Assembly: GCA_026400815.1 (NCBI GenBank)
Contig: JAPLOI010000013.1
Coordinates: forward strand, 1-56,206
Length of the DNA stretch: 56,206 nt
From: Alphaproteobacteria bacterium
GTDB lineage: Bacteria > Pseudomonadota > Alphaproteobacteria > Acetobacterales > Acetobacteraceae
Reading direction: 5' to 3'
Shown: one piece after another, positions 26,698-28,408 of the stretch
Position numbering within the stretch: position 1 is the first letter of the stretch
How the letters are laid out: the number at the start of each line of letters is the position of its first letter
Made by a program: the position numbers and the translations under genes
The notes under the pieces: model-generated
Database searches by the model: none
What the model saw: only the letters and a program-made list of their open reading frames with translations
What the model was told of the DNA's origin: nothing

Positions 26698-27480
26698 ATG
26701 GCCAACTTCTCGCTGCCCGCCAACAGCCGCGTTCAGCCCGGCACAACCCACAAGGCCCCTGCCGGGGCGAAGAACGTGCGCGCGTTCAACATCTACCGCT
26801 GGAGCGCGGATGATGGGCAGAACCCGCGCACCGACACGTTCGAGATCGATCTCGACGCGTGCGGCCCGATGGTTCTGGACGCGCTGATCAAGATCAAGAA
26901 CGAGGTCGATCCCACCCTCACCTTCCGGCGCTCCTGCCGCGAGGGGATCTGCGGCTCCTGCGCGATGAACATCGACGGGACCAACACGCTCGCCTGCCTC
27001 AAGCCGATCGAGGAAGTGGCCGGGGAGGTGAAGATCAACCCGCTGCCGCACATGCCCGTGGTGAAGGACCTGGTGCCCGACCTCAGCCAGGCCTACGCCC
27101 AGCTGCGCTCAATCGAGCCCTGGCTGAAGTCCGACACGCCTGCCCCGCCCGACGGCGAGCGCCTCCAATCGAAGGAAGAGCGCGCCAAGCTGGACGGCAT
27201 GTGGGAGTGCATCCTGTGCTTCTGCTGCTCCACCGCCTGCCCCAGCTACTGGTGGAACGGCGACCGCTTCCTGGGCCCCGCCGTGCTGCTGGCCGCCTAC
27301 CGCTGGATCGCCGACAGCCGCGACGAGGCCACCGGCGCCCGCCTGGACGCGCTGCATGACCCGTTCAAGCTGTACCGCTGCCACACCATCATGAACTGCA
27401 CCCAAACCTGCCCCAAAGGCCTGAACCCCGCCAAAGCCATCGGCGAAATCAAGGCCCTGATGGTCGAGCGCGAAGGCTGA
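26698..27480 (+). CDS. sdhB: Succinate dehydrogenase iron-sulfur subunit
   Basis: SdhB carries electrons from FAD to ubiquinone through three clusters. The 260-residue protein shows the 2Fe-2S ligands in [16 protein letters not shown]...LAC, the 4Fe-4S ligands [16 protein letters not shown], and the 3Fe-4S ligands [17 protein letters not shown]. Trp/Tyr residues of the quinone pocket are also present. It is the last gene of the operon and is followed by a strong stem at 27504. Confidence 0.98.
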
Positions 27481-27503
27481 CGACGGCCTTCCTGGGAAAG
27501 AAA

Positions 27504-27525
27504 GGCCGGGGCTTTCGCCCCGGCC
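27504..27525 (+). terminator. Stem-loop after sdhB (first hairpin of the compound element)
   Basis: GGCCGGGGC-TTTC-GCCCCGGCC is a perfect 9-bp stem starting 23 bases after the sdhB stop. It lacks a U tract but is very stable. It is also the outermost left hairpin of the 27504-27738 element. Confidence 0.6.
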
Positions 27526-27587
27526 CCCAAGCAGGGGCTTTGCCCCTGCACCCCACTGGGGCCTTAGGCCCCAGACCCCTTTACTTT

Positions 27588-27656
27588 TTTGCCCATGGCA
27601 CGGGGTGGGCTATCGGGAGCTATGATCCGGATAGCCCACCCCGTGCCATGGGCAAA
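27588..27656. repeat. 27-bp perfect inverted repeat with 15-base spacer
   Basis: The left arm (27588-27614) begins TTTGCCCATGGCACGG and ends GGGCTATC. The right arm (27630-27656) is its exact reverse complement. The spacer is GGGAGCTATGATCCG. Such a long perfect stem could extrude as a cruciform or act as a terminal structure of a small non-autonomous mobile element. Confidence 0.9.
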
Positions 27657-27760
27657 CTAATGTGGGTCCAGGGACCTCAGGTCCCTGGTAGGGGTGTCGG
27701 GGGCAAAGCCCCTGACCGGGTCCAGGGCAGAGCCCTGGCCTTCCTTCCGGGAGAGCCAGC

Positions 27761-28408
27761 ATGAGGTTCGACGGGCGGCCGTTTGCGGCGTGGATGAATT
27801 CGTTGTGGGTGGATCATGCCGTGTTGCGCACGGTGTGGCGCAATTTTGCCGTGGTGGTGCCGGGCCAGTGGTATCGGGCCAGCCATCCCTTGCCGTGGCG
27901 CATTGGCGGCTGGGTGCGGCGGATTGGGCTGCGGACGATCGTGAATTTGCGTGGCCCGCGGGAATGCGGGTCGGATGCGTTGTCGCGCGCGGCGACGGGG
28001 CGGCTGGGCGTGAACCACGTGTACATGCCGTTCGAGAGCCGTGGGGCACCGCACCGGGACCGGATCCTGCGGTTCCATGAGATCTGGCGCACGGTGGAAA
28101 CCCCGGTGCTGATGCATTGCAAATCGGGCGCGGACCGGGCCGGCCTGGCCTCAGGCCTGGTGCTGATGTTCGGGGGCGGCACGGCAGCCGATGCGCTGGG
28201 ACAGTTGTCGCTGCGCTTCGGGCATGTCCGCGGCGCGCCACCAGGGATCCTCGATGCGTTCTTCCTGCGCTACCAGGCAGAGGCAGAGGGGCGGTTGCCG
28301 TTCCTCGATTGGGTGCGCGACGAGTACGATGAGGAGGCGCTGCGCCGGGATTTCCGGGCGCATGGCCTGGCCAGCTTCCTCAACGACCAAGTGCTGCGGC
28401 GGGAATAG
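27761..28408 (+). CDS. Dual-specificity / tyrosine phosphatase-like protein
   Basis: The 215-residue phosphatase has the Cx5R active site MHCKSGADRAG (Cys120, Arg126). A probable general-acid Asp lies earlier in the fold, though I cannot place it surely. The N-terminus (VPGQWYRASHPLPWRI, then GLRTIVNLRGPRE) matches bacterial DSP/PTP-like phosphatases that act on phosphotyrosine proteins, phosphoinositide-like or lipid phosphates. No signal peptide is seen. Its 3' end overlaps the convergent GT39 gene by 29 bases. Given the lipid A genes nearby a lipid phosphate substrate is possible but unproven. Confidence 0.85.
   Translation: MRFDGRPFAAWMNSLWVDHAVLRTVWRNFAVVVPGQWYRASHPLPWRIGGWVRRIGLRTIVNLRGPRECGSDALSRAATGRLGVNHVYMPFESRGAPHRDRILRFHEIWRTVETPVLMHCKSGADRAGLASGLVLMFGGGTAADALGQLSLRFGHVRGAPPGILDAFFLRYQAEAEGRLPFLDWVRDEYDEEALRRDFRAHGLASFLNDQVLRRE

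Follow-up and report, generated by a model that had tools for sequence, protein, structure and literature searches.

What is the compound palindrome that follows sdhB in this Acetobacteraceae bacterium, and what keeps its arms paired? The window, by which we mean the whole 56,206-nt stretch of DNA analysed, comes from an Acetobacteraceae draft genome (5.11 Mb in 89 contigs, 97.6% complete; hereafter the source genome). An initial annotation made from the letters alone had described three hairpins on either side of a long central stem in the gap between sdhB and a phosphatase gene. The parts of the element and its two neighbours are as follows; genomes and loci are cited by G and L numbers below.

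26698..27480, plus strand: sdhB, the upstream gene (open reading frame; Pfam Fer2_3 and Fer4)
27502..27742, no strand assigned: whole element with AAGG...CCTT ends (read from the sequence)
27504..27525, no strand assigned: left hairpin 1, outer (DNA fold -12.8 kcal/mol, z -4.3)
27531..27549, no strand assigned: left hairpin 2, middle (DNA fold -9.2 kcal/mol)
27556..27574, no strand assigned: left hairpin 3, an inner hairpin of type B, CTGGGGCCTTAGGCCCCAG (one of 72 type B sites in the source genome)
27588..27656, no strand assigned: central palindrome, type I (27 perfect pairs; 31-nt arms at 97%; covariation across the family)
27668..27688, no strand assigned: right hairpin 1, an inner hairpin of type A, CCAGGGACCTCAGGTCCCTGG (one of 54 type A sites in the source genome)
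27696..27716, no strand assigned: right hairpin 2, middle (DNA fold -7.7 kcal/mol)
27722..27738, no strand assigned: right hairpin 3, outer, CCAGGGCAGAGCCCTGG (its outer unit GGGTCCAGGGCAGAGCCCTGGCCTT occurs in 46 of 120 family genomes)
27761..28408, plus strand: tyrosine/dual-specificity phosphatase-like gene, downstream (open reading frame; Pfam PTP-NADK 5e-8 and Y_phosphatase3 5e-7)

The element begins about 20 bp past the sdhB stop codon, and repeat search and folding bear out the annotated architecture, with all seven mirrored hairpins lying inside 27504-27738. The 69-base central stem with 27-bp perfect arms was likewise recovered at 27588-27656, where the 27 perfect pairs are followed by one mismatch and three further pairs, and which the repeat search returns as 31-nt arms with 97% complementarity. 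Folded as DNA, this stem reaches -40.7 kcal/mol, with shuffles averaging -12.5 (z -12.6), and a 261-nt RNA fold scores -205.9 versus -125.2 in shuffles (z -12.9), a value equalled by 0 of 200 shuffles. The right trio of hairpins does mirror the left, the two sides showing 79-81% complementarity in blocks of 21-28 nt. One detail of the annotation fell away: the difference between GGGGCC..GGCCCC on the left and GGGACC..GGTCCC on the right is not a recent compensated change, as these are the fixed hairpin types B and A, which occur once each in all 96 short copies accepted by a parser that takes only A-like or B-like inner hairpins.

Those copies answer the first part of the question. The window element belongs to a dispersed repeat family with copies in many places of this bacterium's genome and in its relatives. 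Three findings that would have made it a chance or decayed structure, namely a single copy in the genome, a lack of relatives and alignments without covariation, were all replaced by their opposites: the source genome holds many copies, all congeners searched hold matches, and the stems covary as described below. Specifically, the element gives 104 alignments in the source genome, from 40 scored places among 120 candidates, and at up to 3 mismatches inner hairpins A (CCAGGGACCTnAGGTCCCTGG) and B (CTGGGGCCTnAGGCCCCAG) have 54 and 72 sites there, with 0 for the reversed-pattern control of each. One copy used as query found matches in 8 of 8 congeners, in 9 of 15 other family genomes and in 0 of 16 genomes from the rest of the class. 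The outer hairpin unit, again at up to 3 mismatches, occurs in family genomes that include the source genome and two congeners (reversed control 0), and at up to 1 mismatch in 1 of 142 class-level genomes, namely the source genome, in a set containing just one family genome besides it. A strict pattern of paired GGGGC hairpins marked 4 places in the source genome (control 0), two of which read as half units (L091 and L092). None of 80 named sdhB loci has A or B at up to 1 mismatch; the closest SdhB loci in that named collection belong to draft genomes labelled Asaia bogorensis and Acetobacteraceae bacterium. Plasmids and phages were rejected as carriers after 1 match in 72,556 records, none of it in a phage record; the sole plasmid match, on a plasmid of Rhodovastum atsumiense, is a 57-bp half unit that directly follows the stop codon of an oxidoreductase gene. 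We found no description of this hairpin-repeat family in open-licence papers.

The anatomy of the family was read from 96 parsed short copies (46 from the source genome and 50 from congeners), after copies cut by contig ends, half units and inner hairpins more than 3 bases off A or B had been dropped. Every one of them has one A and one B hairpin, in either order, around a central cargo, and 173 of 192 ends carry AAGG[CT] no more than 60 nt beyond the inner hairpin, a raw count without a chance control. At 146 of 172 measurable ends there is room for a single outer hairpin only, which makes the three-hairpin sides of the window element the less common form. Where both outer hairpins could be classified they are unlike in 71 of 74 copies (in 22 of the 96 one or both outer hairpins stayed unclassified, as did the loop in 22 of the 96). 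The cargo is usually a near-perfect palindrome of 60-75 nt, which a simple motif rule divides into type I, whose palindrome is hypervariable (16 copies), and type II, in which a stem of about 24 bp closes a loop of about 25 nt (78 copies); in two short copies the centre is nearly deleted. Four additional copies with both inner hairpins have a cargo of 530-580 bp, and such module copies carry an open reading frame of about 130 codons. There are also half units consisting of an outer and a single inner hairpin, copies with extra hairpins inserted within hairpins, and exceptions to the A-plus-B rule that have a different inner hairpin on one side and fall outside the parser, e.g. L083. Inserted small G+C hairpins were seen at L012, L038, L039, L075, L076, L087, L088, L089, L099 and L109, and some of them start with CGTCGCG, recalling the CGTC tag of one REP superfamily.

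Among described systems the nearest kind is the REP/BIME, which like this family consists of short extragenic palindromes in many copies, paired in mosaic units, and the copies here do form an intergenic mosaic of short repeated palindromes. E. coli BIMEs are located at the 3′ ends of genes, the small dispersed repeats of cyanobacteria are tiny, palindromic and dispersed, and Lichenicola cladoniae is a species of Acetobacteraceae. The window family differs from REP/BIME sequences in its long hypervariable central palindrome and its unit length, about 240 bp in the window copy, and from tagged REPs in that, by eye, its hairpins are accompanied by ACCC/GGGT and AAGG/CCTT instead of GTAG or CGTC; the initial annotation, which knew of no named class with this design, therefore came close, as a nearest kind exists but its tag and partner RAYT are missing here. 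Excerpts of the literature state that CGTC repeats are missing in Acetobacteraceae (PMC3733652) and that RepRanger reports 1,369 REPs in L. cladoniae (PMC12306157), describe REPINs as REP doublets that form a single long hairpin and multiply within a genome, with mention of the cyanobacterial small dispersed repeats (PMC3116915), and present intrastrand triplex repeats of bacteria, which like the window family are intergenic, show no strand bias and have unstable sites (PMC4666352).

The annotation had also suggested a mobile non-autonomous element. We consider it unlikely that the family is a miniature mobile element of MITE or REPIN type, served by a transposase in trans, whose flips and swaps would stem from successive rounds of insertion and excision at favoured sites. 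MITEs are similarly short, with inverted ends, many copies and empty sites in relatives, and the present family has dozens of copies with common AAGG/CCTT ends, several copies in which a protein-coding module takes the cargo position, and sites that are empty in some congeners (L016 in G001, G004 and G005; L031 in G005 and G006). However, no target-site duplication is visible at these empty sites, where the flanks are only 71-78% identical, and the transposase and recombinase search of the source genome, which covered Y1_Tnp only, gave a single match, a RAYT-like gene (L090, G000:C53:14000-18000) with a different hairpin, CCCGCATCnnGATGCGGGC, beside it. That hairpin rules out this RAYT as the mover of the window repeat, and the draft genome thus differs from the REPIN arrangement in having no RAYT gene flanked by the same repeat. 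The cargo III protein was also considered as a known transposase and rejected, having no Pfam, NCBIfam or PDB-sequence match and one PHROGs match (E 0.076) in 1 of 19 members. Proteins of about 130 amino acids were seen at L073, L074, L075, L076, L109, L081, L096 and L350-L363, either as the cargo of a copy or next to an A+T-rich palindrome. Their family has 37 matches in the source genome, 4-40 in five congeners and 0 in three congeners and the other 51 genera (60 genomes searched), with dN/dS of 0.24-0.47 among six gene copies by a home-made count.

Stem pairing and placement bear on a further alternative, a bidirectional transcription end or 3′-RNA-protection structure kept by selection for RNA pairing. 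In arm sets cut by local alignment, which trims bad ends, type I stems (n=16) contain 520 Watson-Crick pairs, 8 mismatches and 0 gaps, with arm identity between copies averaging 73% (range 59-94%), and type II stems (n=78) contain 1909 paired and 21 mismatched positions and 1 gap. When the 16 type I copies are aligned, 99.0% of cells pair and 22 of 37 pairs have changed on both sides, giving a covariation score of 0.531 versus 0.128 in shuffles and at most 0.077 when the pairing is slid, which supports the annotated claim that stems remain paired despite sequence change. Wobble intermediates are nevertheless rare and show no excess in the transcribed strand, either in this alignment, where G-U accounts for only 4 of 524 cells, or in 41 tandem loci read in the transcription sense, where 1022 pairs contain 12 mispairs, 1 of them G-U and 6 A-C. 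Rfam models gave 35 matches at the window with E <= 5, all below the gathering score and mostly to hairpin-shaped models, and no hairpin followed by a T tract was found in 27300-27960, a scan of the window copy only.

With respect to placement, 39 of 43 classed copies in the source genome and 35 of 39 in congeners have a called gene 3′ end no more than 60 bp away (3 and 11 copies, respectively, were unclassed). Gene calls came from a home-made codon score that misses some genes, including the window phosphatase, and place one source-genome copy and one congener copy inside a called open reading frame. After gene pairs with gaps over 520 bp were removed, source-genome copies lie in 15 convergent, 18 tandem and 0 divergent contexts against 8, 27 and 10 control gaps (Fisher p 0.012 and 0.004), and 28 congener copies whose two neighbouring genes are no more than 150 bp away divide into 14, 13 and 1. 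The location near stop codons, the excess between convergent genes with none between divergent ones in the source genome, and the very stable folding would all suit an RNA structure; the same placement can, however, arise because promoter insertions are lost, and the order of hairpins relative to transcription is unfixed (18 BA, 12 AB). Comparison across genomes shows copies that sit near gene 3′ ends and whose stems stay paired while changing sequence, and we regard an RNA function as the driver of this pairing as distinctly improbable. The initial annotation's strong transcription block, taken as an intrinsic terminator, is not supported, no hairpin with a T tract lying at the window copy, and neither is structured RNA under selection, given the few G-U pairs and the want of an Rfam family at gathering score; of its joint proposal that selection or a copying process keeps the stems, copying fits the data and RNA-level selection is not supported. 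Stem evolution more likely points to a DNA-level process than to RNA selection, and given the very few G-U pairs together with the orientation flips described below, the covariation more likely records DNA copying.

Those flips emerged when the flanks of copies were matched across genomes. Among 27 pairs of a source-genome and a congener copy with both flanks matched (22 sites), 17 are inverted and 10 are not, and among pairs with at least 95% flank identity 9 of 14 are inverted. This main count omits the 12 of 39 source-congener pairs with one matched flank; including them gives 20 inverted of 39, and adding congener-congener pairs 28 of 56. G001 has the window element itself in the inverted orientation (both flanks, 96.2%), and G004 has it uninverted (one flank, 90.9%). 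Content changes as well. The cargo type switches in 2 of the 27 pairs (sites L002/L155 and L006/L163), the L020 site in G004 has a minimal outer-B-outer form, and an A+T-rich nested palindrome (CTTCTTTTTGTGAACAAAAAGAAGCAAAAAAACTT...) stands in for the element at the sdhB site of G003, G005 and G006 (L119, L307 and L117) and at the L014 site of G003 and G005. For congener type II elements the source-genome copy at the same site is the best match in 8 of 35 cases, and in 2 of 19 among inverted ones; in three the source-genome copy is of type I. Part of the content nonetheless descends vertically, since type II pairs that share both site and orientation resemble each other more closely (median 0.91) than non-orthologous pairs do (0.81). 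Reverse-complement cargo identity reaches at least 0.93 in 7 of 28 inverted pairs, which would fit simple in-place inversion equally well. Within copies, loop orientation relative to A-B is 44:30 among 74 classified, and the outer hairpins are swapped 52:19.

Some gene ends contain other sequences. The loci with the A+T-rich nested palindrome include L291 and L292. At the L014 site a DUF4160-DUF2442 gene pair adjoins the element in G002 (L290), where the source genome has the element alone, and other insertions of about 570-900 bp occupy this site in G007, G004 and G006 (L288, L289 and L293), which suggests that insertions favour this gene end as a hot spot.

Flips and swaps of this kind could in principle be short-read assembly errors at repeats, and contigs of these drafts often end in copies (e.g. 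L003 and L008), while at L165 and L168 in G007 the two flanks match two different source-genome loci, which reflects either recombination between copies or misassembly. We nevertheless judge assembly error to be very unlikely, as the A or B hairpin lies a median of 29 nt (26-59) from the AAGG end, a distance at which short k-mers should, by reasoning, fix the orientation, and as the main count is limited to pairs with both flanks matched. Comparison of the draft genomes shows that species with flanks about 95% identical often have different content, and a different apparent orientation, at a given site.

A similar layout recurs with different hairpins. Downstream of sdhB in an Acidocella draft genome we observed the same arrangement built from unrelated hairpins (L188), and the same genome has 11 more stems of 16-35 pairs with at most 1 mismatch beside A+T-rich hairpins, a set that leaves out L313, an ordinary terminator-like stem. 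Several of these stems are alike and others are not, and where both flanking hairpins were recognised they differ from each other (6 of 6 copies).

Like pairs (A-A or B-B) occur in 0 of the 96 parsed short copies, versus B-B in 2 of the 4 copies with a 530-580-bp cargo (Fisher p 0.001). Excerpts of PMC3733652 report that unlike partners are favoured in most tagged REP families, a rule said there to lack an obvious explanation, with the suggestion that unlike pairs escape SbcCD and clearance, and quote 8-16 bp as the minimum stem for SbcCD cleavage. The contrast between short and long-cargo copies fits this clearance suggestion, four long copies being few. Removal of hairpins cannot be strict, since central stems of 24-35 pairs exceed the SbcCD minimum and persist. 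A cassette-exchange system whose own recombinase acts on the paired unlike hairpins would also account for the A-plus-B rule, for three cargo kinds at one position, for both orientations being common and for the Acidocella layout with its other hairpins, but it is highly improbable given that the Y1_Tnp search found no recombinase or tied one to the family and that clearance of long palindromes explains the rule too.

Taking this evidence together, we read the element as a REP/BIME-like intergenic mosaic repeat of DNA palindromes whose turnover is driven by template switching and exchange between copies, a reading to which we assign a probability of roughly 55%. Replication template switching at the palindromes would copy one arm onto the other and invert the spacers between them; excerpts of PMC8604942 describe template switching that homogenises short inverted-repeat arms and inverts spacers, and those of PMC8794818 likewise report arm homogenisation and spacer inversion. 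Recombination or gene conversion among the dozens of copies may in addition swap whole elements, and because the element ends are inverted repeats such swaps could occur in either orientation. A and B would have to differ because like sides close together would form a palindrome of about 200 bp, which cells would eliminate. Template switching and exchange would jointly account for the paired yet changing stems, the flipped loops, the swapped outer hairpins and the flipped elements. The host may tolerate or use the elements at gene 3′ ends, as for E. coli BIMEs, and this is the weakest step of the scheme.

More tentatively, and in our estimation doubtfully, these loci may represent gene-end docking sites of Acetobacteraceae, at which pairs of unlike hairpins enclose a palindrome or small gene that can be exchanged. 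Swapping and inversion of this content by a DNA-hairpin process would then be rapid enough to randomise orientation by the time flanks have diverged by about 4-5%, and hairpin alphabets would differ by genus while serving one design.

Strong covariation is usually taken as evidence for a functional RNA, and in this family it is more likely the trace of DNA copying. The copies in this bacterium and its relatives offer a natural bacterial archive in which palindrome homogenisation, spacer inversion and exchange among copies can be counted.
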